The position numbers were made by a program, and so were the translations under genes. Positions 6,266 to 39,229 of a DNA stretch of 46,417 nucleotides are shown here, in pieces. The number at the start of each line of letters is the position of its first letter. Position 1 is the first letter of the stretch. Under the pieces are notes generated by a model. That model did not search any database and was not told where the DNA came from. It saw only the letters and a list, made by a program, of their open reading frames with translations. This stretch comes from a virus, in the IMG/VR virus record IMGVR_UViG_3300032278_000019, positions 1-46,417 of that record; one strand, given 5' to 3'.

Positions 6266-6272
6266 GACCAAG

Positions 6273-6301: not shown

Positions 6302-6313
6302 GGGTAATTACCC
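6302..6313. promoter_or_regulatory. Repressor operator 2
   Basis: GGGTAATTACCC is a perfect 12-base palindrome, 24-25 bases from operator 1 and thus about two helical turns away on the same face. A GGGT half-site (6295-6298) lies between them. This spacing favours cooperative binding of two dimers. Confidence 0.75.
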
Positions 6314-6350
6314 ATTAGGCCGAACATTACCGATGTGGGATGAACCCTCC

Positions 6351-6962
6351 ATGGAAACGTTCGCTGATCGATTGAGGCGGCGGCTCCGAGAGGTCGACAT
6401 AAGCATGCGCAAAGCCTCGCTTGATGCTGGGCGCAATGAGACGTGGGTGCGCGATCTGCTCCATGGCAGGACGCAGATGCCTTCCGCCGAACATCTCGAG
6501 AAGCTCGCCGAGGTACTAGACTCTTCCCCGCAGTGGCTCTTACATGGAGGGGAACACAGCGGGAACGTCGGTGGCAGGACCGTCCCGCTCGTCGGCCACG
6601 TTGGGGCGGGGGCAGAGATTCTCATCATTGACGATCACGCCAAGGGCGCTGGGCTTGAAGAAGTCGCTGCGCCGCCGGGAGCGCCACGCTCGACCATCGC
6701 CGTGCGCGTGCGCGGCGAAAGCCAGCTCGGCCGGTTTGATGATGGCGACATCATCTTCTACAGCGAGCACTTGCCGCCGGACGACCTGGTCAACCGGCGC
6801 GAGTGTGTCGTGAAGCTGGCGGACGGGCGGCTGTTCGTGAAGCGGCTCGTGCGCGGGAGCGGGCAGGGGCTTTATACGCTGCTCAGTTCGAATGCGGCGC
6901 CGATCGACGATGTCGCGGTCGAGTGGGCAGCCAAAATAGACGCCGTCTCTCTCGCTTACTGA
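6351..6962 (+). CDS. LexA-like (S24) phage repressor, CI type
   Basis: 203 residues: an N-terminal XRE helix-turn-helix (about 3-55) and a C-terminal S24 peptidase domain. The LexA-type cleavage site is in VGHVGAGAE (Ala86-Gly87); the catalytic dyad is Ser124 in RGESQLG and Lys164 in FVKRL. This repressor should cut itself when RecA is activated, giving SOS induction. Start taken at 6351 (GGGATG upstream); 6334 is an alternative. It faces the Cro-like gene across two operators. It maintains lysogeny by blocking both early promoters. Confidence 0.9.
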   Translation: METFADRLRRRLREVDISMRKASLDAGRNETWVRDLLHGRTQMPSAEHLEKLAEVLDSSPQWLLHGGEHSGNVGGRTVPLVGHVGAGAEILIIDDHAKGAGLEEVAAPPGAPRSTIAVRVRGESQLGRFDDGDIIFYSEHLPPDDLVNRRECVVKLADGRLFVKRLVRGSGQGLYTLLSSNAAPIDDVAVEWAAKIDAVSLAY

Positions 6963-10144: not shown

Positions 10145-11185
10145 ATGAAGAAATATCCGCATGTGCAGCCGGTCAGGGCGGGCGGGCGCACCTATCACTA
10201 TTTCCGTCGCGCCGGAGCGCAGCGGCAGCGCTTGCCGGGCGAGCCGGGCAGCCCGGAGTTCGACCGGGCCTATTCCCGCGCGCTGGCGAAGAGCGTGAAG
10301 CCGGAGAACCGGCCCCCGACGCGCGCCAAGCGCGGCACGGTGGCATGGTGGGCCGAAGAGTACCGGAACACGCCGGAATGGGAGCGCCTGTCGGCTCGGA
10401 CGAAGGAGATCTACAACGGGTTTCTGGGCCACCTGATCGCGCTCTATGGCGAGCGGCCGCTCGGCGAGCTGACCGAGGCGCGGGTCTGGCGCGTCCGGGA
10501 CACGGCGCCGGGCCCGGTCAGCCGGGTGAACGGCATGCTGAAGGTGCTGTCGAACATGTGCGCCCTGGCGGTGCGCCGCGGCAAGCTGCCGACCAATCCG
10601 TGCGCCAATGTCTCGCCTCGGCCGACCAGCGGCGAGGGGCATGCGCCGTGGACCGAACTCCTCGTCGATCGCTACCAGGCGCATTGGGCGCGGGGCACGC
10701 TGCAGCGCGCGGCCTTCGATCTCGGGCTCTATACCGCGCAGCGCCGGGGCGATGTCTGCCGGATGCGCTGGGACGCGATCGAGGATGGCGGGGTGAACCT
10801 GACGCAGGGCAAGACGGGCAGGGCGCTTTTCGTGCCGCTGCACGCCGACCTGATCGAGACGCTCGCCGAGACGCCGCGGCTCGGCCCGTTCATCGTCGGG
10901 ACACAGGCCGGAAGCCAGCGCAGCGACAAGGCGTTCGGGAACTGGTTTCGGGAGTCGGCGTCAGCCGCGGGCGTGCCGGCGGGCTATCCGTTTCACGGCC
11001 TGCGCAAGACGGCGGCGGTCCGGCTGGTCGAGGCGGGCGTCTCTGTGGACGATGCCTGCGCCATCACCGGCCATTCGGACCCGAAGATGCTGCGGCACTA
11101 CGCGGCGACGGCGGACCAGCGGGTCCGCGCGAAACGCGCTATGGAGCGGCTGCAATCGCAGCTGGAACAGAGCGCGAAACTGTAA
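10145..11185 (+). CDS. int: Tyrosine recombinase, phage integrase
   Basis: 346 residues from ATG 10145 (TTG at 10109 would add 12). An N-terminal arm-binding/SAM-like half is followed by the catalytic domain: Arg in TAQRRGDVCRMRW, Lys in QGKTGRALFVPL, HGLRKTAA box with His and Arg, TGHSDPKMLRHYAA with His and the nucleophile Tyr. All catalytic residues are present. It integrates the phage into the host chromosome. Several TGTAAAA motifs near its 3' end may be arm-type sites. Confidence 0.92.
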   Translation: MKKYPHVQPVRAGGRTYHYFRRAGAQRQRLPGEPGSPEFDRAYSRALAKSVKPENRPPTRAKRGTVAWWAEEYRNTPEWERLSARTKEIYNGFLGHLIALYGERPLGELTEARVWRVRDTAPGPVSRVNGMLKVLSNMCALAVRRGKLPTNPCANVSPRPTSGEGHAPWTELLVDRYQAHWARGTLQRAAFDLGLYTAQRRGDVCRMRWDAIEDGGVNLTQGKTGRALFVPLHADLIETLAETPRLGPFIVGTQAGSQRSDKAFGNWFRESASAAGVPAGYPFHGLRKTAAVRLVEAGVSVDDACAITGHSDPKMLRHYAATADQRVRAKRAMERLQSQLEQSAKL

Positions 11186-11372
11186 AATCCCCTAGAGCTG
11201 TAAAACCCACAACGAAAAGGCCAGCAATGACAATGATTTGGGAAGGAGTGGCGCACCGGGGAGGTGCGGCACAACATAACGAAATCAGCGGCTTATACAA
11301 AAGCGGCGTCCCCACCGCCGCCCAGTGTTTGCCTATGCCGTCCGCGCACGGTTGTAAAATCGGAGCGCGGTC
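11186..11372. other. Candidate attP region downstream of integrase
   Basis: 187 bases without a gene, AT-richer than the genome average. TGTAAAATC occurs at 11181-11189 and 11353-11361, with GAGCTGTAAAA at 11195-11205 in between. These could be integrase arm sites flanking a core. I could not recognise a tRNA-derived core sequence, so the crossover site is unknown. Confidence 0.45.
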
Positions 11373-11756
11373 ATGAGCCGCCCGACCGAAGCCCCCGAGG
11401 CCCCGTTCTGCCGCGCCGCCTATGACGAGCTCGAACGCCTGAAATACCAGGGCAAGGCGTCCGACGCGATCGCCCACCTTCTGGCGAACCACTATCCGCC
11501 GGCCGTCCTCGCGGACTGCGAGGGCTGCGAGAGCTACGCCACCGAGGCGGATTTCATCGCGGCGGCCTGGCGCGAATATGAGCGGCTCGGGCCGGAGCTG
11601 GACCGCATCGTCCTGCACGTCTCGGCCGAGCGGGGCATGCACCTGCTGATGGGCCGCACGATCCTGCGGCGGATCCTCGTCGAGCATTACGGCATCGCCG
11701 AGCGGCCCATCGCGCCGGGCGAGAGCGCCGACACCTGCGCGGGGCTGCCGGTATGA
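11373..11756 (+). CDS. Hypothetical protein
   Basis: 127 residues, mostly alpha-helical, with three cysteines in the first half (PFCRAAY, ADCEGCESY). No recognised domain. It overlaps the HNH gene by ATGA and starts the second part of the rightward operon after the att region. Confidence 0.75.
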   Translation: MSRPTEAPEAPFCRAAYDELERLKYQGKASDAIAHLLANHYPPAVLADCEGCESYATEADFIAAAWREYERLGPELDRIVLHVSAERGMHLLMGRTILRRILVEHYGIAERPIAPGESADTCAGLPV

Positions 11757-12292
11757 GCGTTCTTGCGGAAAGCAATGTCGGGCATCCCCGTTGGTGCAAT
11801 CTCGAAACCCTCGAGTGGAGGTGGGGTTCTCTTACCCTGCCGCCGGATGGCTGGCTTTGGGCCTACTCGATCAATCCAGTTGGCCCGTTCGCCGAGGTCT
11901 CAGCTCGTGCCCTGCAGCTTCCGGTGCTCGCTGATCCATGGGGCCAGCTGCAACGCGACATGCAGGACGCCGAGCGGTGGCGGAAAGACCTCGACGACAG
12001 TCGCACCACGGCGGGCTTTCTCGAATGGCTGGAAGGGCCGCCGCTCGAGCCAGAATCGACTGCGGTTCGCGCGGCCCTGATCACGCTTCGCCGTGCCGAG
12101 TTCACCCGTGAGCGGACCGACCTCCTGCTCGGTCTGATCGATCGGGACGGATACGTCTGCCGCGGCTGCGGTGCAGGCTCCGATCTGACCGTCGACCATA
12201 TCCATCCGCTCTCGCGCGGCGGGAGCGATGCGCTCGAGAACCTTCAGCTCCTCTGTGGCTCCTGCAATTCCCGGAAGGGAGACCGGATATGA
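11753..12292 (+). CDS. HNH endonuclease
   Basis: 179 residues. The C-terminal HNH fold reads DRDGYVCRGCG, LTVDHIHPLSRGGSDALENL and CGSCNSRKGDR: two CxxC zinc pairs, the DH catalytic pair and the final N-x-x-K. The N-terminal 100 residues are not recognised. Phage HNH proteins may act in packaging, recombination or as mobile nucleases; being in an early operon, far from terminase, recombination or homing is more likely. Confidence 0.85.
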   Translation: MSVLAESNVGHPRWCNLETLEWRWGSLTLPPDGWLWAYSINPVGPFAEVSARALQLPVLADPWGQLQRDMQDAERWRKDLDDSRTTAGFLEWLEGPPLEPESTAVRAALITLRRAEFTRERTDLLLGLIDRDGYVCRGCGAGSDLTVDHIHPLSRGGSDALENLQLLCGSCNSRKGDRI

Positions 12293-13523: not shown

Positions 13524-14200
13524 GCCGTTCGAGAGACGCCCTCGCCGAAGTCATGGCCCGCGCCGGCAGCGGGAAGCGGTCGACCGACCACGAGGCCGAA
13601 AGGGGCCGGGCCGCTCTGGCCCGCGCCATGGGGCACGTCACGCTCGGCGACACCAAGACGCCGCTGCGCAAGGCGACGTCCTCGCCGAAGCCTCAAGCCG
13701 AGCCGAAGAAGGCGCCTTCGCCCGGAACCGATCGTTTCCGGCAGGCCGCGGCCCGCGTGGCCGAGCGGAAGGCGAGGCCGGTCGGGGAGGGGGCGCCGGC
13801 GGAGGAACCGCAGAAGCGCACGAAGAAGCCGAAGGCGAACGTTCACAGCCGCCTCTGGAACCCGAAGCTGCTGGACCTGTCGCCGGTGCCGCATGCGCTG
13901 CCGCACGAGCAGGAGATCGCAATAGTGGCCGCGTACGCCGCCGGCACGAAATCGGTAACGGTCGCAGAATCGTATGGCGTCAACTCGTCCACTGTGACTC
14001 GCCTTGTGCGCATGTACGGCATTCCGCGCCGACCGAAGGGCTGGGGGCGATCGGCACACGTGGACCGTAATACTCGCATCCTCGAGCTGCACCGCCTCGG
14101 CCTGTCTCAGAAGGAAATCGCCGGTTCGGTCGGCGGCATCACTCCGAACCGCGTCGGGCAGATCATCGCCGCGGCAGCGGAAAGCGAGGGGGCGACATGA
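13520..14200 (+). CDS. Two-helix-turn-helix regulator
   Basis: 226 residues. A basic, low-complexity N-terminal half (KKPKANVHSR) precedes two helix-turn-helix units: TKSVTVAESYGVNSSTVTRL with a basic RRPKGW, and LSQKEIAGSVGGITPNRVGQ. Sits near the end of the early operon, a position where late regulators (Q- or GcrA-like) are often found, so it may control late transcription (inference). Confidence 0.65.
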   Translation: MSRSRDALAEVMARAGSGKRSTDHEAERGRAALARAMGHVTLGDTKTPLRKATSSPKPQAEPKKAPSPGTDRFRQAAARVAERKARPVGEGAPAEEPQKRTKKPKANVHSRLWNPKLLDLSPVPHALPHEQEIAIVAAYAAGTKSVTVAESYGVNSSTVTRLVRMYGIPRRPKGWGRSAHVDRNTRILELHRLGLSQKEIAGSVGGITPNRVGQIIAAAAESEGAT

Positions 14201-14451
14201 CCAAGCGCACGACATGGCGAGAAGGCTGCGCCGCGATCATCTTCGAGGCGGTGCGCGGTCTGCCGCCGGACGCCACGCTTGAGGAGCGCACGAAGCGGGT
14301 CGATGCGGCCCGGCCCTATTGGGTCCGCCGCACCTCATGGGGCCAGAAGTCCTGGCAGGCCGCCCGGCGGGATTACCTGTCGAAGTTCGGCTATCGGAAG
14401 CGCGGCCAGAAGCAGGCGACGCTGCCGCTGTTCGAGGGGGGGCAATCATGA
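14197..14451 (+). CDS. Small hypothetical protein
   Basis: 84 basic residues rich in Arg and Trp, with WVRRTSWGQKSWQAARRDYL. ATGA overlap with the regulator. The motif is common in late-early phage genes of unknown role. No domain recognised. Confidence 0.7.
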   Translation: MTKRTTWREGCAAIIFEAVRGLPPDATLEERTKRVDAARPYWVRRTSWGQKSWQAARRDYLSKFGYRKRGQKQATLPLFEGGQS

Positions 14452-15047
14452 AGGTCTGCCCCCACACCCTAGGCGAGGTCTTCCGGGTCCTAGACGACCT
14501 CGCAGAGACGCACGACTGGAACGCGCAAAACGGTCCCGAGAGCCAGCGAGTCGAACGGGCAGCCTCCCGAGACGCCGTGTCCGTCGCGAAGGAGTTCATC
14601 GCCGCAGACCTGTTGGGGCTCTCTCCCGAGCAGGTGACGTGGTTTGCCACTCAGCCCGGCAGCGATGCCGTCAACCAGGGGCAGAAGGAGAGAAGGATGA
14701 TAACGGACTCATGCACTGACGTAGACGAAGACAGCTTCTCGGCTCTGAAGAGACGGTTCGATGCATTGACGGAGGCCGAGCGCGATGCCGTCTCGAAACC
14801 TTACGAGGTGTGGGGCAGCCGCATCCTGTTCTGGCTCTGGCCGTTCGGCACCTTCGGTCTGATCCTTGACGACCGCCTGTTGGCAGCCCTGCTCTGGTTC
14901 TTCGTCGCCGGGTTCTTTGCCTACGGAGTGGTCTCGGCGCGTATGTCGTGCACCGTGTCGCGCCACGAGGAGCGCCTACGCATCCTCAATCAGGGTGGTG
15001 GAACCTCACCTGCCGGACGACCTCGATCCTTCAGAGGGTCCGCCTGA
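14448..15047 (+). CDS. Membrane protein with possible internal start
   Basis: 199 residues. The first 83 are soluble and acidic; residues about 115-160 contain two hydrophobic segments (ILFWLWPFGTFGLIL and LLAALLWFFVAGFFAYGVV). A second in-frame ATG at 14696 has a better ribosome site (AAGGAGAGAAGG) than the first and would give a 116-residue two-helix membrane protein. Either a fusion or two products from one frame. Last gene of the rightward operon, so a holin-like or superinfection role is possible but unproven. Confidence 0.65.
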   Translation: MKVCPHTLGEVFRVLDDLAETHDWNAQNGPESQRVERAASRDAVSVAKEFIAADLLGLSPEQVTWFATQPGSDAVNQGQKERRMITDSCTDVDEDSFSALKRRFDALTEAERDAVSKPYEVWGSRILFWLWPFGTFGLILDDRLLAALLWFFVAGFFAYGVVSARMSCTVSRHEERLRILNQGGGTSPAGRPRSFRGSA

Positions 15048-23005: not shown

Positions 23006-25428
23006 GCGTAGACCCTTTCGTCATAGGCGTAGCCGCTGATCTCGAAGGTGAGGCCGCTGCGCTGGCGGACGTCCGTCACGATCATGTCGATCCACTCGCC
23101 TGCGGCCGGGCGGAGGATGGCGAGAACGCCGCCCTCGCTCGCATCGTCGAATGCGCTCGCAGGGAAGGGCAGGGCGGAGCCGCTCGGAGTGGTGTAGAGG
23201 TAGAGATTGCCCGAGGCGGTCATGGTGTGCGGGCCGTAGGCTCGGCCTCGGCTGTCGCGGATCATAACCGGGACCTGTCCGGTCTCCTCGAAGGGCTGGT
23301 CGATGCCGATCCATGTCGGACCGTAGCCCGTGACGACGCGGCCCTCGCCGGCGTCGAGCCAAGGCGCCGCGACATGGATCCGCTCGCCTCGCTCGACAAG
23401 GCGCCCCTCCTGCTCGGTCGCGAAGGTGATTCGGGTGTGGCGCAGGAGCTTCTGCTTCCAGAGCCGCTGGGCATAGGCCAGAGCGGCCGCGCGATAGGTG
23501 AAGCAGAACAGCTTGCGCCGCGTCGGCCGGATCGCGCTCGTCGGCCACGTCACGGCGTCGACCACGCCGGTATCGGGGTCTCGAAACTCGATCGTGAAGC
23601 CGTCCTCGTCGCCTTCGGCGCCGACTTGCGACGTCATCTTGAGAGAGCCCGCGACGATGTTATCCGGCGAGAAGAGGGTCGAGACCGTCGGCTTTGCCTT
23701 GTCATGGTCGACCGCGAGCTTGTTTCCGCGCCAGACCGGCTCGGCGTGCACGAACTGCCCGACCGAGCGCAGCGCGTCGTAGATCGTCGTCTCGGTGTCG
23801 AACACGCCGTTGGCGCCCGGCACGTCGAGGTCCCGCAGCGCATCGAAGGTCTCGTCTTCGATTTCCGAGAAAGGCCGCCCAACGGAGTAATCGGCATTGC
23901 AGTAGATGTCGGCCATGACATGCGCCGGGTCGGCCGTGCCGGTGGTCTGGCCGGTGTCATAGCGCTCGATCCTGCGCGTTGCCGTGACCTGAATGCGCTG
24001 CTGCGCGCCGCTCGACAGCTCCTCGGCCGAGGACAGCTTCACGACGAGCAGCGTGACCTCGCCATAGGCGGGCGTGCCGGCGGCGTGCTTGATGTAGCCC
24101 TTGAGCCCGGTCCAGAGCGTGCGGCTCGCCGAGCTGGTCTCTTGGTCTCCGCCGACGCGGCGGGCCTCGGCGAGATACCGCCCGGCCGGCACGTTGTAGC
24201 CATAGGTCAGGCGGATCGGATCGTTGGTCGAACGGGTCAGGACCGGATCAAAGGTGATCGGGCTGCCCGTCACGTTCCCGTCGTCGTCGATCGGCGTCAT
24301 GCGGAAGCCGAGCGTAACGGTGTTGTTCGCGAGGCTGCCGTCATCGTTCGAGGTGAACAAGCCGCTCGGCAGCTCGATGTCGAACTCGATCCGGTCAACG
24401 GTCTTGCCCGGTGGGCAGGTCACGAAGGGCCCGGCATAGCTGCCATTGTCCTGCGCGCCGCCCGAACCCTCGACCGTGCCGCTGAACTCGCCCGTGACGG
24501 AGAACTCTCCCATCACAGTGACGGCGTTCCCGCTGACCGAGACGACGTTATAGATCCCGTCCACGTCGCCGGTCGTCGTGGCATAGGTGGCCGGGCCGTT
24601 GCCGCCGGTCGGCTGGGAGCCGGACACGGTCACGGTGCCGCCGGCGCTGATGCCGAGCGAGTCGGGAGAGGCCTGCAGCGAGAGGACGCCGCGTCCCTGG
24701 CTGTCGTTCGAGACGTAGAACGTCGTGACGTCGTAGTCTGCGGCCGGGTCCGACTCCAGCGGCTGCTGCGCGACCTCGCCCGACGTGTAGACGTCCTCGT
24801 GCACGCCGAACTCGGCTTCGATCTTGCCGAGCTGGCGGTTATGCTGCCCGGGTCCGAACATGCGCCATGAGAGGATCGAGGACGGCAGCGCCTTGGCATT
24901 CGTCCCGCCGACATACAGGTCCAGAGAGGACCCGTCATAGAGCCCGGCGCCGAGGCAGAAGATGAAATACCGCATCTCCTTGTTGTTCAGAAACTTACGG
25001 TAGGAGATGGAGGCGAGGTCCGGCGCGCGCTTCACCCGGCCGTACTGGACCGGGATCACGGCGCCGAGGCGCGCCTGGTTGGTCTGCACGCCGACCGAAT
25101 AGACCTGCGAGGGCTCCGGCGCGCCGACGAAGGTGGGCGGCTTGGGGGAGATCAGGTTCGTGATGATTGCGGAAGCGACCGCAATGACGATGTTCACCAC
25201 GAGCGCGAGCTGGCCGGGCGACACTGCGACGATGACAGCCTCGTCGTCTGCGAGCGGCCGGCCCCAGTCTTCGATCTCGGTTCCGTCTTCGGTGAAGGCC
25301 TTGGCCTTCCGGCCCTTCGAGCCCTCCGGGAACTGCTTCGCCATGAAGTCGGCGATACTGCCTTCGTGCGCGAAGGTCTGCTGCTCGTCGGGGTGACGAA
25401 CGTCAGCGCATAGCTGGATCAGAGCCAT
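23002..25428 (-). CDS. Host-specificity/tail tip protein J-like (TipJ)
   Basis: 808 residues. It has a hydrophobic segment near 80-105 (LALVVNIVIAVASAIITNLI), then RLGAVIPVQYGRVKRAPDLA, a hallmark of J/TipJ proteins, and beta domains with fibronectin-like features. J proteins form the central tail tip, contact the receptor and open the DNA channel. Overlaps the NlpC gene by 10 bases. Confidence 0.85.
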   Translation of the reverse strand: MALIQLCADVRHPDEQQTFAHEGSIADFMAKQFPEGSKGRKAKAFTEDGTEIEDWGRPLADDEAVIVAVSPGQLALVVNIVIAVASAIITNLISPKPPTFVGAPEPSQVYSVGVQTNQARLGAVIPVQYGRVKRAPDLASISYRKFLNNKEMRYFIFCLGAGLYDGSSLDLYVGGTNAKALPSSILSWRMFGPGQHNRQLGKIEAEFGVHEDVYTSGEVAQQPLESDPAADYDVTTFYVSNDSQGRGVLSLQASPDSLGISAGGTVTVSGSQPTGGNGPATYATTTGDVDGIYNVVSVSGNAVTVMGEFSVTGEFSGTVEGSGGAQDNGSYAGPFVTCPPGKTVDRIEFDIELPSGLFTSNDDGSLANNTVTLGFRMTPIDDDGNVTGSPITFDPVLTRSTNDPIRLTYGYNVPAGRYLAEARRVGGDQETSSASRTLWTGLKGYIKHAAGTPAYGEVTLLVVKLSSAEELSSGAQQRIQVTATRRIERYDTGQTTGTADPAHVMADIYCNADYSVGRPFSEIEDETFDALRDLDVPGANGVFDTETTIYDALRSVGQFVHAEPVWRGNKLAVDHDKAKPTVSTLFSPDNIVAGSLKMTSQVGAEGDEDGFTIEFRDPDTGVVDAVTWPTSAIRPTRRKLFCFTYRAAALAYAQRLWKQKLLRHTRITFATEQEGRLVERGERIHVAAPWLDAGEGRVVTGYGPTWIGIDQPFEETGQVPVMIRDSRGRAYGPHTMTASGNLYLYTTPSGSALPFPASAFDDASEGGVLAILRPAAGEWIDMIVTDVRQRSGLTFEISGYAYDERVYA

Positions 25429-25841
25429 GTGTAGAACTCCGCGTTGAAGAAGGTGCTGTCCTTGAGCCGAACGTGCTCAACCCCGCGGGGCTTGTTCGCG
25501 TGCAGGATGCCCCCGGCGAGGACGACGCCGGCGTGATAGATCGCCTCGCCCGCGACACAGAGCGCGACCGCACCCTCGCGCGGCTCGCATTGGGTCCATT
25601 CCGGCAGGTGCTGCGCGAACCCTTGCGAGACGCGACGGATCGAGCCCGGCGCGATCATCGGATCATAGGGGGCGCGATACCCGGCCATGCCGAGGGCGAG
25701 CAGCACGAGGCCGTAGCAGTCCAGCCCGGCCCGCGTTCTCCCGAGGCCTACATAGGGCGTGCCGACAAGGGCGTTGACGACGGAAGCGGCATCGGGGGCG
25801 GCCACACGAAGTGGTCCGCCCCGCGAAGGGGTCAGCGGCAT
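25419..25841 (-). CDS. NlpC/P60-type tail assembly peptidase
   Basis: 140 residues. Catalytic Cys42 in GLDCYGLVLLALG, His103 in AIYHAGVVL and a second His114 in GILHANK match the NlpC/P60 triad. It resembles lambda K and GTA gp14, which sit before J in the tail cluster. It is thought to cut peptidoglycan during entry or process the tail tip. Confidence 0.87.
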   Translation of the reverse strand: MPLTPSRGGPLRVAAPDAASVVNALVGTPYVGLGRTRAGLDCYGLVLLALGMAGYRAPYDPMIAPGSIRRVSQGFAQHLPEWTQCEPREGAVALCVAGEAIYHAGVVLAGGILHANKPRGVEHVRLKDSTFFNAEFYTWL

Positions 25842-25930
25842 GCGCGCATCCTTATCTGTGGGACCCTGAGGACGCGCGGGGCGCGACGCCGGGCACGGGT
25901 GGGGAAGGGCCGTGCCCTAGAGACGGCCGG
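25842..25930. other. Spacer with hairpin between antirepressor operon and tail genes
   Basis: 89 bases. GGGCACGG (25891-25898) and CCGTGCCC (25910-25917) form an 8-bp stem. No T-run follows on the minus strand, so termination may be partial. AAGGA before 25841 is the ribosome site of the NlpC gene. Confidence 0.45.
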
Positions 25931-26239
25931 TCAGAAGTCGCCCGGGCTTCGCGCGATCCTGCTGGCGAGGTCGATCACCTTCTTGTCGCTGAACCGGGGC
26001 TCGGCGACGGTAGGAACCGGCGCGCCGATCTCTTCCTTGTCGGCCCGCGTCAGGAAGCAGGACCGGAACATCCCGTCATACATGACGATGTCGTAGATCG
26101 CCCGGATGGCTGCCGCCGATCCGCCCGCCGCGAGCTTTCCGGCGGCCTCGGTGCTGATCAGGTAGAGCGGATCGTCCGACTCCTCGGACTGAAGCACGGT
26201 GACGAACTCGTTCAGGACTTCGAGAACCGGTTCGCTCAT
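25931..26239 (-). CDS. Hypothetical protein of the antirepressor operon
   Basis: 102 residues, mainly helical, with ISTEAAGKLAAGGSAAAIRA and SDKKVIDLASRIARSPGDF. It overlaps the antirepressor by ATGA, so it is translated together with it. No domain recognised; perhaps a partner of the antirepressor. Confidence 0.7.
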   Translation of the reverse strand: MSEPVLEVLNEFVTVLQSEESDDPLYLISTEAAGKLAAGGSAAAIRAIYDIVMYDGMFRSCFLTRADKEEIGAPVPTVAEPRFSDKKVIDLASRIARSPGDF

Positions 26240-26991
26240 GCTGCCTCCTCAAGCGTCTTGCCGAGCCGCTTGGCGAGCCAGCGCAGCCCCTTCGGCGTGC
26301 AATAGGCCTGATACCGGGCCTTGTCGTCCACCACCGTCATGCGGACCGTGAAATAGCCCTTCTCGCGGTAATAGACCTTCGGCACGAGCGTCTTGCCCTC
26401 GTAGAAGAAGATGCCCGCCTTGAGGAAGGCGAAGAACTTGCCGTCCGGCTCGTTCAGGGCGCGCGCGGCGCCTCGAAGGTTGATCAGCCCGTCCGCGTTC
26501 ATGAACCGGTCGTAGAAGTCGGTCTTCGGCTTGGCCGCCTCGATCTGCTTCTCGGCCTGTTCGATCTTCTCCGTCAGCTCGCGGTTCACCTCGAAGAGCT
26601 GGATCGCGACCTTGTTCATCTGGAGCGGGTCGCGGAGGTCGATCTCCACCGGGGCTTTCCGCAGCTCCTCCTCCATGGCGTTGAAGGCGGCGATGTATTG
26701 CCGCTTCCACTTCAGCGCCTTCGCGCCGGTGAATCCCATGGCGAGCAGGGTGAAGCCGTCACGGTCCATGCTGTAGGCCCGGGTCTGGCGGGTGCCGCCA
26801 TTGCCGGTCGGCACCTCGACGGACACAAGCTCAAAATTGAGCCCGAGTAGATCTGGCTCCTCGTCGATCAGCCGGTCGATGTCGCGAAGGACGTTCTTAT
26901 GCTCCTTGCCGAACGCTTCGGCGATGTCGCGGCTGTCGGCGCGGACCGAGTCGTCCTTCACGAACAGGGTGGTCTTGATCAGATCGCTCAT
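26236..26991 (-). CDS. Antirepressor, Rha plus KilAC domains
   Basis: 251 residues. Residues 1-115 match the Rha regulatory domain (SRDIAEAFGKEHKNVLRDID, TGAKALKWKRQYIAAFNAM). A coiled-coil linker (about 135-150) precedes a KilAC domain (PKTDFYDRFMNADGLINLRG through KGLRWLAKRL). Such Ant proteins bind and disable phage repressors. It is the fourth gene of a five-gene minus-strand operon that faces a ribbon-helix-helix gene, as in P22 immI. Confidence 0.9.
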   Translation of the reverse strand: MSDLIKTTLFVKDDSVRADSRDIAEAFGKEHKNVLRDIDRLIDEEPDLLGLNFELVSVEVPTGNGGTRQTRAYSMDRDGFTLLAMGFTGAKALKWKRQYIAAFNAMEEELRKAPVEIDLRDPLQMNKVAIQLFEVNRELTEKIEQAEKQIEAAKPKTDFYDRFMNADGLINLRGAARALNEPDGKFFAFLKAGIFFYEGKTLVPKVYYREKGYFTVRMTVVDDKARYQAYCTPKGLRWLAKRLGKTLEEAA

Positions 26992-27311
26992 GCGGCTTCT
27001 CCCGTCAGTGCGCGCGCTTCTCTCCAGATCGCGCCGTGGTCCCAGTCGAGCATCTCGTGACCGCCCACGGCGGCGACGATGAGCTTGGCGGCGAAGTCGG
27101 CCGCGCAGGTGGAGGGCATGTCCTTGAGGCGGTCGCGGATCGCATCGGCCTCGTGGTAATAGAGCCGGTCCAGCGTCTCGGCGCTCATGCGGACTCGGCC
27201 CTCGGCGGCCGCCGCCGCGAACAGGTCGCGGTGACGCCGGTAGAGCCGCAGGATCTCCGTGTCTTCGGTTTCGGGCGGGGCGGGCAGGGCGGAAACGTTG
27301 CTCTCGCTCAT
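26988..27311 (-). CDS. Paralogue A, antirepressor operon
   Basis: 107 residues, clearly related to the next upstream gene product: both have TEILRLYRRHRDL/TEILRLFRKYREL, EADAIRDRL/EAAEVRDRI, a CAADFAAKLIVAAV/CATDLAAKLLVATL helix and end in EARALTGEAA/EARSLMGEAA. A tandem duplication. ATGA overlaps on both sides. Function unknown. Confidence 0.8.
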   Translation of the reverse strand: MSESNVSALPAPPETEDTEILRLYRRHRDLFAAAAAEGRVRMSAETLDRLYYHEADAIRDRLKDMPSTCAADFAAKLIVAAVGGHEMLDWDHGAIWREARALTGEAA

Positions 27312-27640
27312 GCCGCTTCTCCCATCAGGCTGCGCGCTTCCTTCAGGAGAGCGTCCGCGTATTGGTCCGCCACCAGGTCAAACCCGTGGAGCGTCGCCAC
27401 GAGCAGCTTCGCGGCGAGGTCCGTTGCGCAGGCGGACGGCAGCGCCATGATCCGGTCCCGGACCTCAGCCGCCTCGCGGTAGAACAGGCGCTCGAGAACC
27501 TCGTCGGTGTCGTCGGGATAGACCGCGCCCCCCACGAGGAGTTCGCGGTACTTGCGGAACAGGCGAAGGATTTCTGTTTCGCCCCGCTCGGGCGTCTCAG
27601 CCGGGGCGGGCAAGATGTGGATAACGCTGTTCGGGTTCAT
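27308..27640 (-). CDS. Paralogue B, antirepressor operon
   Basis: 110 residues, about half identical by eye with the downstream paralogue (shared segments listed there), which makes the pair a tandem duplication kept in one operon. The shared CxxDxAAKL helix and the carboxy end are the best-conserved parts. No known domain; may be a small regulatory or sensing partner of the antirepressor. Confidence 0.8.
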   Translation of the reverse strand: MNPNSVIHILPAPAETPERGETEILRLFRKYRELLVGGAVYPDDTDEVLERLFYREAAEVRDRIMALPSACATDLAAKLLVATLHGFDLVADQYADALLKEARSLMGEAA

Positions 27641-27870
27641 GCCGGCACCCGCTGCGCCGCTGCCGCGATCAGGCGGGCTGCACGCGCGCCGCTGTCCTCT
27701 CGCGCCGCTCTCGCCTCGGCCTGTTCCGCGACGCGAAGGGTCTCGGCCCGCAGTTTCGCATTGCCTGCACCGGTCGCCGGGATGCGCGCGGCTTCCTCGC
27801 GGGCGATCTCTGCGACCAGCAGCGCCAGACCGGCGAGGTTCGTGCTAGGGGTGGGGGTAGCTCGTGTCAT
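27637..27870 (-). CDS. First gene of the antirepressor operon, hypothetical
   Basis: 77 residues of Ala/Glu/Arg-rich helix (LALLVAEIAREEAARIPATG). GGAGACACCC before ATG 27870 is a good ribosome site. It is nearest to the divergent promoter controlled by the ribbon-helix-helix repressor. Overlaps paralogue B by ATGA. No domain recognised. Confidence 0.7.
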   Translation of the reverse strand: MTRATPTPSTNLAGLALLVAEIAREEAARIPATGAGNAKLRAETLRVAEQAEARAAREDSGARAARLIAAAAQRVPA

Positions 27871-27931
27871 GGGTGTCTCCATGGTTCGGGTTAGGCCGGG
27901 CGGTGGCGGTGGTGCGCCCCGTCCGGCTGAC

Positions 27932-27991
27932 ACATAACTTATATGCCTTATGCGCGTTGTCAATATAACCGTGCTGGGTTATATGCGTTTT
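27932..27991. promoter_or_regulatory. Overlapping divergent promoters with inverted-repeat operator
   Basis: Plus strand: TTGTCA (27957-27962), 16 bases, TTATAT (27979-27984), then ATG at 27992. Minus strand: TTGACA at 27963-27958 with an AT-rich -10 near 27941-27935 (TAAGTT). The plus-strand spacer and -10 carry ATATAACC (27963-27970) and GGTTATAT (27977-27984), a perfect inverted repeat. A further ATAACTTATAT lies at 27934-27944. Both promoters therefore share an operator that the ribbon-helix-helix protein can use. Confidence 0.72.
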
Positions 27992-28159
27992 ATGGCCCGT
28001 CCTCCGAAGCTCACCGAGAAGAAGCTGCTCACGCTCACGCCTGAGCTGGCACAGCGTATTTCCGATTTCCGGTTCGCCAGGCGCATTCCGTCCGAGACAG
28101 AAGCCATTCGGCAGCTGATCGAGGCGGGCTTGCGAGCCGAAGAGAGCCGCTCGCAGTGA
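27992..28159 (+). CDS. Ribbon-helix-helix repressor (Arc/CopG type)
   Basis: 55 residues: a short beta strand (KKLLTLTPELAQRI) and two helices (SETEAIRQLIEAGLRAE) in the Arc/MetJ arrangement. The ATG lies about 7 bases after the -10 element, so the mRNA is likely leaderless. The inverted repeat over its own promoter suggests autoregulation and control of the divergent antirepressor operon, like Arc or Mnt in P22. Confidence 0.8.
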   Translation: MARPPKLTEKKLLTLTPELAQRISDFRFARRIPSETEAIRQLIEAGLRAEESRSQ

Positions 28160-28248
28160 AGCGAGGTTTCCCCTTCACCGAGCGATGGTGGTGGGCGCTG
28201 ATGGGTCTTTTGCTTATGGCCTGGCTGGTGTCGCGCGTGTTCGGCTGA
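28156..28248 (+). CDS. 30-residue single-helix membrane protein
   Basis: GTG start overlaps the repressor stop as GTGA, so it is coupled. The peptide has a basic start, three Trp in a row and a hydrophobic helix (ALMGLLLMAWLVSRVF). One membrane span, N-terminal side likely inside. Too short for any family. Selection on coding is suggested by the exact overlap, not proven. Confidence 0.5.
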   Translation: MKRGFPFTERWWWALMGLLLMAWLVSRVFG

Positions 28249-28287
28249 GCCCACCGCCCTGCCGCCGGGGCTTTATCTGCCGCGTTC

Positions 28288-28316
28288 GTTGCGCCAGCCT
28301 TACGGCTCCGCAACGA
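28288..28316 (+). other. Stem-loop in front of exported-protein gene
   Basis: CGTTGCG (28288-28294) pairs with CGCAACG near 28310-28316, with an inner AGCC/GGCT stem and a TTAC loop. No U-run follows. It ends 12 bases before ATG 28328 and could affect translation or RNA stability. Confidence 0.5.
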
Positions 28317-28327
28317 AAGACAGCCCT

Positions 28328-28660
28328 ATGAAGATGTTCACCGCCGCCGCTGCGGCACTGCTCGCGCTTGGCTCTATCGCTCAGGCGGCAGATCTGAGCG
28401 CCGATGAATGCCGCGCAAAGCTCCAGACAGTCGACGAGGCCGGACTTCTGAAGGGGAGCGATGACACCGATCCGAACGCTTTCAGGATCATCGTGGACGG
28501 CGGTGTGTGGAAGGAACTCGATTTCCGGGCAAAGACAATGATCGCCGAATGCTTCAACACAGTGCTTCTTGGAGAGCGCTCTGGAAAAATGCTGTCCTTG
28601 AAGTTCATGGATCACCGCTCAAACGAGGTGATCGGCCGCTTCCCGCCTTACAGAGAGTAG
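28328..28660 (+). CDS. Exported small protein with signal peptide
   Basis: 110 residues. KMFTAAAAALLALGSIAQAA is a clear Sec signal peptide with cleavage after AQA. The mature part has two Cys (SADECRAKL and IAECFNTVLL) that could form one disulfide, and a helical, charged body. Periplasmic. As a plus-strand gene in the accessory island it is a moron candidate; function unknown. Confidence 0.75.
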   Translation: MKMFTAAAAALLALGSIAQAADLSADECRAKLQTVDEAGLLKGSDDTDPNAFRIIVDGGVWKELDFRAKTMIAECFNTVLLGERSGKMLSLKFMDHRSNEVIGRFPPYRE

Positions 28661-28667
28661 GCTCGCT

Positions 28668-28811
28668 TTAGTCCTCCGCGTCGCCGCTCATCAGCGACGC
28701 GGGCACGAACAGCTCGGGACCGAAATCCCCGACTCTATAGAGGTGCTGCCGCTTGCCGCGGGCGGAGCGGCGCGCCTTCCGGATTACGGCCTTAGCGAGT
28801 GTGCGGATCAT
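28668..28811 (-). CDS. 47-aa protein carrying the tape-measure FGPELF motif
   Basis: Basic helix (TLAKAVIRKARRSARGKR) followed by RVGDFGPELFVPASL, nearly the same as VGEFGPELFMPSTAG in this phage's own tape-measure protein (about residue 583). Strong GAAGGAGAGCCCC ribosome site. The leader is almost identical to that of the lipoprotein gene at 38297. It may bind the partner of the tape-measure C-terminus, as an assembly factor or a decoy; this is inference. Confidence 0.7.
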   Translation of the reverse strand: MIRTLAKAVIRKARRSARGKRQHLYRVGDFGPELFVPASLMSGDAED

Positions 28812-28846
28812 GGGGCTCTCCTTCTGCGCGCCTAACGTGGTGGTAA
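28806..28846 (-). promoter_or_regulatory. Moron leader element, copy 1
   Basis: GATCATGGGGCTCTCCTTC (28806-28824) and CCTAACGTGGTGGTAA (28831-28846), separated by 6 bases (plus-strand reading). The same two blocks, 4 bases apart, occur at 38292-38330. On the minus strand the outer block reads TTACCACCACGTTAGG and the inner one holds the ribosome site and start codon. Probably a promoter/leader cassette shared by two moron genes. Confidence 0.75.
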
Positions 28847-28925
28847 TCGGCGGCGCGGTCCAGAGGCCGGGCTCAGCTGGCGGCGTGCTGGACTCTCGCA
28901 GCGAGCGCATCCTACGAAGTGAAGC

Positions 28926-28949
28926 GGCGGCCCGTTGGAGGGGCCGCCG
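28926..28949. other. GC-rich hairpin upstream of zinc-ribbon gene
   Basis: GGCGGCCC and GGGCCGCC flank a short GTTGGAG-type loop near 28926-28948, forming an 8-bp stem. No U-run on either strand. It lies between two divergent genes and may insulate them. Confidence 0.5.
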
Positions 28950-28958
28950 TCACCTGAA

Positions 28959-29029
28959 CCAGCCATAGGGGGCTGGATATCGCGCGATGGTCGCAGCCTA
29001 TGGCCGTGCCCTGCGTGCGTCCAGCCCCC
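28959..29029 (+). ncRNA. Candidate structured RNA/leader before zinc-ribbon gene
   Basis: Three competing pairings: CCAGCC (28959-28964) with GGCTGG (28971-28976); GCCATAGG (28962-28969) with CCTATGGC (28997-29004); GGGGGCTGGA (28968-28977) with TCCAGCCCCC (29020-29029). The last two cross and could form a pseudoknot. ATCGCGCGAT (28978-28987) is a palindrome in the loop. The element ends 21 bases before ATG 29051 and next to its GGAGGGG site, so a leader switch is possible. On the opposite strand it could act as a decoy site. Confidence 0.45.
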
Positions 29030-29050
29030 GCCGATCCGGAGGGGCCTTCA

Positions 29051-29353
29051 ATGGCGAAAGATTCGATCGAAATCATCTGCCGCGCGTGCGACTGCGCCGT
29101 CGAAGCTGTCGAGGATCCGGAGGGCGACGACATTGTGACCTGTCCGTCCTGCGGGGCGAGTGACCCATTCGCAGTGGTGATGGAGAAGGTCTCGGACGAG
29201 CTGTCGGAGGTGGTCGGCGACAGCCTCATCGGAGAACTGGCGGACGGCCTCGGCAATTCGTCCTCGGTCAAGGTGACGCCGAAGCCGGACCGACAGAGCG
29301 GGTACAAGTTCACCTTCCGGCGCGATCCCAGTCATTCGAAATACCTCCGTTGA
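29051..29353 (+). CDS. Zinc-ribbon protein
   Basis: 100 residues. Two Cys pairs (CRACDC and CPSC) separated by 16-18 residues form a zinc ribbon; the C-terminal half is acidic then basic, ending FTFRRDPSHSKYLR. GGAGGGG ribosome site. Ends 6 bases before the end of the DUF1833 gene on the other strand. May bind nucleic acid or a host factor; not recognised. Confidence 0.75.
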   Translation: MAKDSIEIICRACDCAVEAVEDPEGDDIVTCPSCGASDPFAVVMEKVSDELSEVVGDSLIGELADGLGNSSSVKVTPKPDRQSGYKFTFRRDPSHSKYLR

Positions 29354-29359
29354 GCGGCG

Positions 29360-29908
29360 TCACCTGACCAGGCCCGGGAAATCCGTCGCCCGATACACCA
29401 TCCGCGGGAAGGCGCGGTTCACGATGTCGGCCCGGTTCGCCACGCCGGACAGCGTGTCGCCCTTCAGCTCGACCGCACCGAGGGACAGCGTGATCGGATC
29501 GCTCGCGGCGACGAAGGCGCCGCCCCAGCCGGTCGGTGCGCCGGGATGCACGAGATAGGTGCAGAGCTGAGCCCGGATCGGAACCGGCGCCTCGTCCCAC
29601 CGCCATTCCAGCGCGCGGCGCAGCTCCTTGCGCATCTCGCCGGTGTCGATCGCCAGATTGATCGACATGTCCTGCCGCCCGCTGCCGTCCTTCGAGGGTA
29701 GGGAGCATTTGAACGGGTAGGGCTGGAACAGGAGCTTGTAGCCCGCACCTGCTACGGTCCCCTCGAACGCCTCGGAGTGGTTCGTGAAGCCGTAGCGGCC
29801 GCTCGCGCCATTGGTGAAGGCGGGGTGATAGAGCTCCAGCCCCTCCGCCTCGATGAGGTCGGACGGCGCATGCGTCCAGCTGCGCTTGAGGTCGTCGGCC
29901 GTGGGCAT
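29360..29908 (-). CDS. DUF1833-like minor tail protein
   Basis: 182 residues with the family pattern: YPFKCSLPSKDGSGRQDMSI, INLAIDTGE and a PVPIRAQLCTYLVHP strand. Such proteins take the place of lambda L/GTA gp12 at the tail tip, between the tape measure and the NlpC protein. Gap of 3 bases to the tape-measure gene. The accessory island follows its 3' end. Confidence 0.8.
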   Translation of the reverse strand: MPTADDLKRSWTHAPSDLIEAEGLELYHPAFTNGASGRYGFTNHSEAFEGTVAGAGYKLLFQPYPFKCSLPSKDGSGRQDMSINLAIDTGEMRKELRRALEWRWDEAPVPIRAQLCTYLVHPGAPTGWGGAFVAASDPITLSLGAVELKGDTLSGVANRADIVNRAFPRMVYRATDFPGLVR

Positions 29909-29911
29909 GGA

Positions 29912-31918
29912 TCAGAACCCCTGCCTGGTCAGGCCGTAACTGTCTTCGAGCATACGGGACACCGGGCCGCGGCTGGCGAAGTCGGCCTGCATCGTCTCGA
30001 CGGTGATCTCGACGTTTCCGCGCCCGTCATCCGTCGCGCGGGCATGGGTGCCGGGCGCGAGGTTGTTGACCGTGACGTTGGCGCCGCCGCCCGCGCGCTG
30101 CGTCGCGGCGTTGCTGGCGATCGTCCCTGCCGTCGACGGCATGAAGAGCTCCGGCCCGAACTCGCCGACGAGGTAAGGCTTCCTCGACATGACCGGCCCG
30201 CCGGTGGCGCGGCCGAACAGCGAAGAGACGAAGCCGCCAATGCCGCCGCTTCCACCGCTCCCGCCGAAGAGGCTGCTGGCGATCCCGTCCATCAGGCCGT
30301 TCAGGGCGCTGTTGAAGACGCTATCGAGCACCCCTGCGAGCGCACCCTTGAAGTCGCCTTGCAGGGCTGCGCGGGTGCCGCGGGAGAAGGCGGAGCGGAA
30401 CAGATATTCCATGTCCCGCTGAAGCTCTTCGTTCTTTCTACCGTCCTCCCCTTCCCCCCCTTGCTCGCTCGCGAACCCGCCATATTGCGCCATGGCGACA
30501 CCGACCGCCGTTCCGCCGGTCCGCTTCAGCCGGTCGGCCTTGGCCTGCTCCACGGCGGCGATCTGCCGCTCGGCGGCGAGCCTTGCATCGGCGCCCTCGA
30601 CGCCGGCCGCATCGAACTCCGCGATCAGGCGGCGCAGTTCGAGCCGTTTCTCGAGGTTCGCGATCTTCTCCCTATCGCCTTCGGCCTCTGCGACCAGGAG
30701 AGCGTTCCGCAGTTCCAGATCTTCGCGCATCTGGCGTTCGAGGGCAGCCTGTTGCGCCTTGGCTTCGGCAGTCTCTCGCGCCGCCACGCTCGGCTTGCCG
30801 GATCCTCCGCCATCGCCCTGCGCCTGAGCCGTGCGCTCGACCGCCTCGGCTTCCCGTTCGGCGGCCTCGGCAGAGACACGGTTCTGCTCGGCGATTAGCG
30901 CGCCGAGGTTCGCACGGCGCTCCTGCAGCTCGGCCAGGCGCTGCTCGACCTCGTCCTGATCCCGCTTGGCCAGCGGGACGAAACCCAAATTCGCGTCGAA
31001 CAGTCCCCCGTCCTTCATCCGCTGGAGCTTGTCCTCCATGAAGGCGATCTCGCGGTTCGTCTTCTGGTACTGCGCCGTCAGGTCTCCTGCCTCGGCCCGG
31101 CGGTCGACCTGTGCCCGCGCGTTCCTGAGCTCGAGGAAGTCGCGGAGTTTGCCCGCCGCGAAGTCGATCTCGTCGGCGAATCGGTTGAGTTCAGCTGTGC
31201 CTGTGTCGCGGAGCAGGCCGAACAGCCCGTCGAGCTCGCGTTTCGCGTCCGCCGCTGCGGCCACGGTGTCGTCCGCCATGATGCGGCCGACCCGCTCCCA
31301 TTCGTCACCGGTTCGGCGGATGTAGCCTTCGCCTTTGACGAGGATGGCGTTGATCTGGTTGCCTTGTTCACCAACCAACTGAGCGCCCAAGGCCGCCGCT
31401 CGCGACGCATCATCAAGCCGGGCGAGGGCATCAGCAATCTTCACGAATTGCTCGTCCGACCTCAGACCTTCGAGGTCTTTGAGCGGAATGTTGAGTTCCT
31501 GAAGCGCTTCCGCCGCCTCGCCTGTGCCGTAGATCAGCGCTTCGCCGATCCGCTCGTTCATGTCGGTCAGGACGTCGACGGCGGCTTGCCCGTCCTTGCC
31601 GACCGAGCGGAAGGCGGCCTGAATACGCTGAAGTCCGCTCGCCGAAGTGTTCGTCTGCTGACTGAGCTCTTCGAGCTGCCGGGCCGTGGCGAGAGCCTCC
31701 CCAGTGAACTTGCCCAGCGCCGCCCCGCCCGCCGCCGCGCCGGCGGCGAGCGCCGTCGCGCTCGTGGCCGCGAAGCTCTTCAGTTTGCCTTCCGCGAGGG
31801 CGAACCGGCGCTCCATGTCGCCCGCGCTCTCCTTCGTCTTGTTCCGGAGCCGGTCGATCTTGTTGAGCGCCTCGTCGACCTTGGCTTCGAACTCGATCTT
31901 GATCGCGCGCAGCTTCAT
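29912..31918 (-). CDS. Tape-measure protein
   Basis: 668 residues. The N-terminal coiled coil (IEFEAKVDEALNKIDRLRNK), a hydrophobic Ala/Gly stretch (about 50-75), long Ala/Glu/Arg helices, a glycine-rich hinge (GGSGGSGGIGG) and the C-terminal VGEFGPELFMPSTAG signature (about 583). Sets tail length and enters the host membrane during DNA ejection. It is short for the class, which predicts a tail near 100 nm by the usual 0.15 nm per residue rule (estimate). Confidence 0.92.
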   Translation of the reverse strand: MKLRAIKIEFEAKVDEALNKIDRLRNKTKESAGDMERRFALAEGKLKSFAATSATALAAGAAAGGAALGKFTGEALATARQLEELSQQTNTSASGLQRIQAAFRSVGKDGQAAVDVLTDMNERIGEALIYGTGEAAEALQELNIPLKDLEGLRSDEQFVKIADALARLDDASRAAALGAQLVGEQGNQINAILVKGEGYIRRTGDEWERVGRIMADDTVAAAADAKRELDGLFGLLRDTGTAELNRFADEIDFAAGKLRDFLELRNARAQVDRRAEAGDLTAQYQKTNREIAFMEDKLQRMKDGGLFDANLGFVPLAKRDQDEVEQRLAELQERRANLGALIAEQNRVSAEAAEREAEAVERTAQAQGDGGGSGKPSVAARETAEAKAQQAALERQMREDLELRNALLVAEAEGDREKIANLEKRLELRRLIAEFDAAGVEGADARLAAERQIAAVEQAKADRLKRTGGTAVGVAMAQYGGFASEQGGEGEDGRKNEELQRDMEYLFRSAFSRGTRAALQGDFKGALAGVLDSVFNSALNGLMDGIASSLFGGSGGSGGIGGFVSSLFGRATGGPVMSRKPYLVGEFGPELFMPSTAGTIASNAATQRAGGGANVTVNNLAPGTHARATDDGRGNVEITVETMQADFASRGPVSRMLEDSYGLTRQGF

Positions 31919-38356: not shown

Positions 38357-39163
38357 TCAGGTGCAGTTAGTTCGCTTCTTCGGATCCGGCGGCGTTTCTA
38401 CCGCTCGCTCGACTGACCAACCTTTGTTGAGGCGCTTCTGAATCGCAGACCGACTGAGACCGCTAAGTTTGGAAAGCTGGTGCAGCGATAACTCCTGCCC
38501 TCGATAAGCATATCGCTTCGACCCGCGCCTCGCGCCGGATGCCTGCGGAGTGGACAGGAGCTCTTCTGCCCCCCATCCGCGGGCAATTCGATGATGAATT
38601 GTCGCGATCGACAAGCCCGACTCTTCAGAGAATTCGCGAACTGTCTTCGTTTGCCCACCTATCGTCACCGTCGGCGTTTCAGTCGGAAGGGCCACTCCCT
38701 CCGCCAGAGAAAGCCCTCGCCGCCGCCGCCCGCTCAGCGTTGCCTTGTTCACCCCGTAGCGGCTCGCCGCTTCTGTGAGTGTCAGCGCTTCGCCCGAAAC
38801 ATTCTCTCGCATAGTGGAGCGCTTGTTCCGGTTTTGCTCTTCAATGGTCGCCCAACGGACGTTACCCGGCTCGTAATGACCGTCGACGTCGATCCGATCT
38901 AATGAGTGGCGCGCCGAGGGCCGGGGGCCGACACACTCAAAGAAGGCTTCAAAACTCCGGCGCCACTCCTCGCATAAACGAATGCCACGGCCTCCATAGT
39001 GCTCGTAGCTGGTGGCGTTCGGGTTCTCGCAACGCTGCCTCATGCCATGCCAAGCGCTATACTCAGGCGCCGTGTCATCCGCTCGCCGCATGCCGTGGCG
39101 AACCGCATCAGGGCGGTTGGTAGTGAATTCGGCGCCGTTCAGCGCTATAACGCGCGTAGCCAT
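38357..39163 (-). CDS. Homing-endonuclease-like protein with helix-turn-helix repeats
   Basis: 268 residues. The N-terminal half has the phage AP2/HNH-like pattern: EYSAWHGMRQRCENPN, YEHYGGRGIRLCEEW, SLDRIDVDGHYEPGNVRWAT and EQNRNKR. The C-terminal half has three helix-turn-helix units (LTEAASRYGVNKATLSGRRR; VREFSEESGLSIATIHHRIA; LHQLSKLSGLSRSAIQKRLN) for site recognition. Base composition is less GC-rich than neighbours. It stands alone between head genes, typical for a mobile homing gene. GAGGTCCAA before ATG. Confidence 0.75.
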   Translation of the reverse strand: MATRVIALNGAEFTTNRPDAVRHGMRRADDTAPEYSAWHGMRQRCENPNATSYEHYGGRGIRLCEEWRRSFEAFFECVGPRPSARHSLDRIDVDGHYEPGNVRWATIEEQNRNKRSTMRENVSGEALTLTEAASRYGVNKATLSGRRRRGLSLAEGVALPTETPTVTIGGQTKTVREFSEESGLSIATIHHRIARGWGAEELLSTPQASGARRGSKRYAYRGQELSLHQLSKLSGLSRSAIQKRLNKGWSVERAVETPPDPKKRTNCT

Positions 39164-39229
39164 TTGGACCTCCTCACAGGTTCATCCGGTTAGAGCGCGA
39201 TCAGAGATTAGGCCCTCTGGTCGCGCTCG
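39164..39229. other. Strong hairpin between homing gene and head morphogenesis gene
   Basis: AGCGCGATCAGAG (39194-39206) and CTCTGGTCGCGCT (39215-39227) form a 13-bp stem with one wobble pair and an 8-base loop. On the minus strand no T-run follows. It may limit read-through into the homing gene or mark its insertion edge. Confidence 0.6.

Follow-up and report, generated by a model that had tools for sequence, protein, structure and literature searches.

A probable second immunity switch of the P22 immI type, built from different parts, in the tail operon of an IMG/VR virus genome

Introduction

What a small repressor gene and an opposed operon do among the tail genes of a phage is the question raised by IMGVR_UViG_3300032278_000019, a complete virus record in IMG/VR, 46,417 bp long, that was analysed as a whole and is referred to here as the window. 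Between two of its tail genes lies a 3.5-kb island (approximately 25,842–29,359), in which a leftward operon of five open reading frames (ORFs), every neighbouring pair overlapping by 4 bp, faces the gene for a 55-aa ribbon-helix-helix (RHH) protein. A sequence-only reading had described this arrangement, all parts of which were found in place, and had likened its logic to that of P22 immI, the textbook second immunity switch. That likeness is backed by the comparison with P22 and by RHH/KilAC gene pairs in relatives, and the island most probably represents an immI-type second immunity switch (probability about 0.68). The putative operator, the promoter overlap, the pairing of RHH and antirepressor genes, the predicted leader hairpin and the insertion of the island are supported by comparison with related sequences.

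In a lysogen, a leaderless mRNA would supply the RHH protein, which would bind GGTTAT-type half-sites located between the genes and thereby limit its own promoter (P_RHH) and silence the opposed promoter of the antirepressor operon (P_ant). When the RHH protein is depleted, or absent as upon entry into a naive or heteroimmune cell, P_ant would fire, and its mRNA, opening with a stable hairpin, would yield the Rha-KilAC protein. This antirepressor would bind and disable a CI-type repressor, either the one encoded in the window (6264–6962) or that of a resident prophage, and loss of the repressor would lead to lysis or to induction of the resident prophage. P22 Ant and the Gifsy antirepressors have been described as inactivating repressors in this manner (PMC11016777, PMC3121763). 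For the window, DNA binding by the RHH protein, the antirepressor activity, the identity of the target and the timing are steps that we infer.

The RHH repressor family and its operator

The RHH protein matches phrog_4738, a family of transcriptional repressors, over residues 12–49 (the RHH core), gives no Pfam match, and is 51% identical to the RHH protein of the Komagataeibacter phage phiKX2. An AlphaFold2 model of the monomer has two helices with the strand unformed, and its best PDB match, the RHH domain of NikR, is weak (E 1.4). Among the comparison loci (designated by L numbers), divergent pairs of RHH and Rha-KilAC genes are present in L072/L119, L117 and L118. The association of RHH with KilAC genes is not a matter of chance, because the RHH profile gave nine matches in 81.5 kb around KilAC domains, and 371 kb of sequence from other loci gave none.

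The sequence GGTKATATMACC, with no or one mismatch, precedes the RHH ATG by 55–57 nt in six loci (L023, L071, L072, L076, L085 and L118), and L117 has it at the equivalent place as judged by eye. All loci carrying GGTKATATMACC share one type of RHH beta-strand, the element that contacts DNA, namely [QR]KL[VI][SA][ML], and RHH genes with other beta-strands have no GGTKATATMACC at 55–57 nt; the RHH proteins of L026 and L042, whose strand reads E-[FIL]-[EQ]-[LM]-R-T, are accompanied by the palindrome GTGTANNTACAC instead. From reading of the GGTKATATMACC group, the two -35 boxes stand back to back, GGTKATATMACC overlaps the -10 box of the antirepressor promoter, and a second, GGTTATYTMACC-like copy overlaps the -10 box of the RHH promoter. 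Taken as a predicted operator, GGTKATATMACC thus has a strong assignment for the family. The assignment for the window's member is moderate: its strand residues (KKLLTL) differ from those of the GGTKATATMACC group, with the promoter geometry kept, and no copy of GGTKATATMACC is found at 55–57 nt, with the half-site GGTTAT retained at the second operator position (O2).

The earlier proposal that the two promoters share the -35 region and an inverted-repeat operator stands in part. The -35 boxes have 5 bp in common and the predicted operator lies between the genes; however, the repeat, ATATAACC-gtgctg-GGTTATAT, covers P_RHH and sits just upstream of the P_ant -35 box, and the site over the P_ant -10 box (O1) has diverged. 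Repression of P_ant would need this degenerate O1-like sequence, CATAACTTATATGC (27933–27946), which the sequence-only reading had not distinguished from the repeat. Over all 46.4 kb, no other perfect inverted repeat is both AT-rich and has arms of at least 8 nt, and when the intergenic region was shuffled 500 times, 13 shuffles gave an arm of this length; by itself the repeat is suggestive and insufficient to claim an operator, and the comparative evidence carries the case. Transcription of the RHH gene is predicted to begin at or next to the ATG, and the message would therefore be leaderless. A direct scan for LexA (GTTCN7GTTC, CTGTN8ACAG) and CtrA boxes detected none near the switch, and four matches to GAACN7GAAC all lie elsewhere. 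As no alphaproteobacterial LexA box is found near the switch, direct SOS control of P_ant is unlikely.

The leader RNA

The predicted P_ant transcript opens with a hairpin, which is followed by CUAACC and then by the ribosome-binding site. In an alignment of six copies of this leader, 6 of the 11 pairs are changed on both sides, a value reached in none of 500 shuffles, and sliding of the strands abolishes the covariation. The fold of the window's hairpin has a z of -2.6, and the leader model detects the window's copy with an E-value of 1e-15, this copy being one of the six sequences of the model. The leader RNA is not in Rfam (no family of Rfam 15 at gathering score), and a description elsewhere was not found. 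A loose scan for hairpins with TAACC gave 23 matches as against 6–14 in shuffles, and only GC-rich covarying stems were trusted.

The same leader precedes the antirepressor operon in L072/L119, L117, L118, L075 and L060, with L007 and phiKX2 as looser cases, and faces an RHH gene in L093, L076 and L085. At E 0.01, the covariance model gave matches, many of them weak, in 48 of the 82 genomes of the order to which the comparison genome G177 belongs; similarity to Azospirillum replicons suggests that this order is Azospirillales. The leaders in these genomes precede ORFs that often start with MADSENTTPLP (or MA..STT) and then differ in their bodies, which are antirepressor-like (L137, L140), carry a twin-arginine (TAT) signal (L125, L131, L150) or are HNH-like (L136). 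Opposite several of these ORFs lies a divergent small repressor, of the helix-turn-helix (HTH) type in L124, L125, L133, L140 and L150 and Arc-like RHH in L137, and long inverted repeats extend across the promoter in L131 and L150. Because the downstream genes vary, the leader is assigned to a broader group of moron cassettes and not to antirepressors alone.

The covarying leader, located before antirepressors and before other kinds of morons, suggests that these genes are subject to an additional level of control. It is conceivable, at somewhat less than even odds, that alphaproteobacterial phages and prophages share a modular class of cassettes, so far undescribed, to which this one belongs and in which a private RHH or Cro/C1-type HTH repressor opposes an operon with a common leader RNA and an exchangeable antirepressor and/or TAT-signal protein, the leader being the shared post-transcriptional control point. 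If this is the case, a single signal would act through the leader on the antirepressors and other morons carried by different phages.

A second hairpin with CTAACC, having a different 13-bp stem, is located in the window at 39188–39229 (minus strand), directly after the stop codon of a head gene and before an HNH-like moron ORF (38357–39163).

The antirepressor and its companions

The sequence-only reading had assigned the antirepressor as a two-domain Rha-KilAC protein preceded by two duplicated small proteins, and the assignment agrees with the Pfam matches to both domains and with the similarity of small proteins A and B (45% identity, E 3e-26). As an alternative to the action described above, the RHH protein may control the operon while the Rha-KilAC protein acts by binding DNA and regulating phage or host genes instead of binding and disabling repressors. 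The Rha and KilAC families carry both "transcriptional regulator" and anti-repressor annotations, and the Rha-KilAC gene of the Paracoccus phage Pyei1 lies in the early region beside replication genes, with no RHH gene annotated next to it. However, known antirepressor loci have the same layout, in which a KilAC protein is kept in check by a repressor of its own, and antirepressor types interchange within the cassette, namely KilAC with Rha, KilAC without Rha, BRO-N and KilA-N. The regulator alternative is thus unlikely, and the Rha-KilAC protein is taken as a putative antirepressor. The sequence-only reading had named the LexA-like repressor as the probable target; this S24 repressor is a plausible candidate, no more, and contains the cleavage-site AG (HVGAGAE), Ser (GES) and Lys (FVKRL) motifs.

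Proteins of about 110–190 aa with an HPDAALL motif, most of them with a twin-arginine-like signal, adjoin the antirepressor or RHH gene in L026, L041, L042, L043, L044, L060, L084, L092 and L093, and weakly in L076. The top matches of a profile of small proteins A and B are mostly such TAT-signal proteins, with no E-value below 0.09 and an hhalign probability of 13%. From this ranking of matches only, small proteins A and B may be remote, signal-less relatives of the HPDAALL family.

The island in the tail operon

The features of the island, its flanks and the candidate target are listed in Table 1. Among tail relatives found via the J-like protein, the DUF1833-like and NlpC-like genes abut in L038 and L039 (a 3-bp gap; a 4-bp overlap), in keeping with the earlier placement of the switch inside the tail cluster, and are separated by one small opposed gene in L040; the corresponding genes are likewise adjacent in Vieuvirus B1251 and Erwinia phage AH03. 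Because the flanking tail genes are adjacent in relatives, the island is regarded as an insertion into the tail operon.

Table 1. Features of the putative switch, the surrounding island and the candidate target in the window
Feature	Position	Strand	Basis or remark
HTH + S24 (LexA/CI-like) repressor, candidate target	6264–6962	+	PF00717 1.4e-7; phrog_4 2.2e-22
NlpC/P60 minor tail protein	25419–25841	-	phrog_329 2.2e-11; weak PF00877; directly downstream of island
102-aa operon-last protein	25931–26239	-	4-bp overlap with Rha gene; no Pfam match, no convincing PHROG match
Rha + KilAC antirepressor, 251 aa	26236–26991	-	Rha PF09669 1.1e-27, then KilAC/ANT PF03374 1.4e-18; phrog_63 "anti-repressor Ant" 1e-49
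Small protein B, 107 aa	26988–27311	-	Paralogue of small protein A, 45% identity
Small protein A, 110 aa	27308–27640	-	Paralogue of small protein B
77-aa operon-first protein	27637–27870	-	ORF; GGAG precedes ATG 27870; no match in Pfam or PHROG families
Leader hairpin, then CUAACC, at 5' end of antirepressor mRNA (predicted)	27889–27929	-	Covariation, fold z
Degenerate O1-like site CATAACTTATATGC	27933–27946	.	Over P_ant -10, where relatives have GGTKATATMACC
P_ant (predicted)	27936–27963	-	-35 TTGACA 27963–27958, 16 nt, -10 TAAGTT 27941–27936; similar geometry in relatives
P_RHH (predicted)	27957–27985	+	-35 TTGTCA 27957–27962, 17 nt, -10 TATATG 27980–27985; same spacing in relatives
Inverted repeat ATATAACC-gtgctg-GGTTATAT	27963–27984	.	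Holds O2 half-site GGTTAT
55-aa RHH repressor	27992–28159	+	phrog_4738 3.5e-7
30-aa putative hydrophobic membrane peptide, GTG start overlapping RHH stop	28156–28248	+	
110-aa protein, apparent Sec signal peptide	28328–28660	+ (repressor strand)	Sequence reading; no PHROG match
100-aa CxxC..CxxC protein, zinc-ribbon-like	29051–29353	+	Sequence reading; last rightward gene of island
DUF1833-like minor tail protein	29360–29908	-	phrog_396 8.7e-16; directly upstream of island

The operon genes run leftward with the tail genes, and the genes on the RHH side run rightward against them. This arrangement raises the possibility that the antirepressor is produced chiefly by late read-through, from transcripts that cross the RHH gene in antisense and run on through the operon; as a late protein, it would help to induce co-resident prophages. 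The operon and the tail genes are co-directional, as this would require, and the sequence upstream of the operon yielded no leftward terminator. On the other hand, P_ant, the leader hairpin and the operator are conserved in relatives, and in L119 the antirepressor gene is opposed to its structural neighbours, which shows that the late-gene orientation is not universal. Read-through as the main source is therefore rather improbable, and a switch driven from P_ant is preferred.

The 110-aa product beside the repressor recalls, in its position, P22 sieA next to mnt. A small ORF on the minus strand at 28668–28811 ends in a C-terminus, RVGDFGPELFVPASLMS, which is like the C-terminal motif LVGEFGPELFMPSTAG of the tape measure protein (29912–31918).

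Evidence weighing against the switch

Several observations speak against a functional switch of this type. Each of the two promoters matches the consensus at 9 of 12 bases, which is weak, and neither is listed by a generic promoter scan, whose rule for the -10 box does not admit TATATG or TAAGTT. The best match to GGTKATATMACC in the window has three mismatches and lies 33 nt before the RHH ATG. The locus might accordingly be a decaying immI-like remnant, in which the RHH protein autoregulates via 27963–27984 and P_ant is no longer effectively controlled, as would fit the degenerate O1, a repeat that is everted in place of the palindrome of relatives, and the lack of an Arc-like RHH protein. 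Decay is at odds with the five operon frames, all of which are open with 4-bp overlaps, and with the intact leader hairpin, and the remnant explanation is considered quite unlikely.

The RHH relatives serve elsewhere too. One in L069 (2968–3171) has a RelE/HigB-like ORF directly after it, the stop and start codons overlapping, and lies opposite a leader hairpin that precedes a different gene; in two records of plasmids matching a relative's RHH protein, no antirepressor is annotated nearby. RHH proteins are common antitoxins, and the RHH protein and the 30-aa membrane peptide could form a toxin-antitoxin pair to which the antirepressor operon is an unrelated neighbour; the RelE-like ORF directly after the RHH gene in L069 would be in line with this. 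The sequence-only reading had coupled the 30-aa peptide to the repressor, and the overlapping ORF is present here; it is, however, absent after the RHH genes of other loci, and what recurs is the pair of RHH and antirepressor genes with a common control region. A toxin-antitoxin pair is thus a very unlikely account of the locus.

Three further points concern the antirepressor and its surroundings. No published experiment was found on a Rha-KilAC protein of this kind. No intrinsic terminator was detected on the minus strand in 25842–25930, after the antirepressor operon and before the downstream tail genes, and activity of P_ant would therefore read into them. Scans of viral sequences with the Rha, RHH, small-protein, NlpC and J proteins yielded few or no close relatives; as no close relative of this phage was found, the switch is not proven to be conserved within its lineage.

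Comparison with known systems

The orientation with late transcription and the overlapping promoters are no differences from P22, whose record shows both: arc-ant is co-directional with the late genes, mnt and sieA are opposed to them, and the promoters largely overlap. Both loci consist of a small RHH repressor gene divergent from an antirepressor operon, with overlapping opposed promoters and operators in between, and both sit among late structural genes, the antirepressor running with late transcription and the repressor against it, with further genes on the repressor strand beside the repressor (orf59a and sieA in P22). What does set the locus of the window apart is its protein families, the lack of an RHH protein in the Arc position and the lack of a recognisable terminator after the operon, in contrast to the ant terminator of P22. 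The antirepressor is Rha-KilAC and not a homologue of P22 Ant, as Rha and ANT/KilAC are the only Pfam matches above the cut-off, and the RHH profile has one match in the whole window. The window also differs from P22 in the two paralogous small proteins ahead of the antirepressor and in the leader hairpin with CUAACC, and no sar RNA was identified in a locus where an antisense promoter was not sought systematically. The full P22 order, with a divergent RHH gene and a second RHH gene standing first before the antirepressor, is found in L026, L041, L042, L043, L049 and L090. The switch of the window works like P22 immI, but is not its homologue.

The two-RHH cassette of L026 is located between tail genes. 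It shares its tail-cluster island with a phrog_5734 protein and a HigA-like regulator (13697–14494), and DNA related to this island occurs on Agrobacterium plasmids with the annotation HigB.

The role of P22 Ant itself is still incompletely understood (PMC3121763). The antirepressors of Gifsy-1/-3 and Fels-1 (GfoA, GfhA and FsoA) can inactivate heteroimmune repressors in trans (PMC3121763). As in the window, their genes lie outside the main immunity region, while heteroimmune action is only proposed here; they are controlled by LexA or the phage repressor and not by a private RHH protein. The p24 protein of Pyei1 has the same Rha and KilAC domains, but is encoded in an early operon after the replication genes, without an annotated divergent RHH gene.

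The closest counterpart in a cultured phage is provided by phiKX2 (L029), which has two cassettes, BCZ76164/BCZ76165 and BCZ76144/BCZ76145. Excerpts of the paper on phiKX2 present it as a temperate phage obtained after mitomycin C and do not describe the switch (PMC8566455). As in the window, an RHH gene is opposed to a KilAC antirepressor gene in line with tail and baseplate genes, and GGTTAT half-sites and a hairpin with CUAACC leader are present. In contrast to the window, the antirepressor comes first in the operon and has no Rha match, the operator is a perfect palindrome, and the second cassette uses KilA-N. The switches are located at 11052–12125 and 23639–25225 in the tail region; the small genes after the two antirepressors are 87% identical to each other, and a duplication of cassette parts is suggested. 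The defined half-sites and the cultured, inducible phiKX2 make the role of Rha-KilAC-type antirepressors testable outside Enterobacteria. What is new with respect to P22 is a predicted switch of the same logic with different parts, and these parts recur in many alphaproteobacterial phages.

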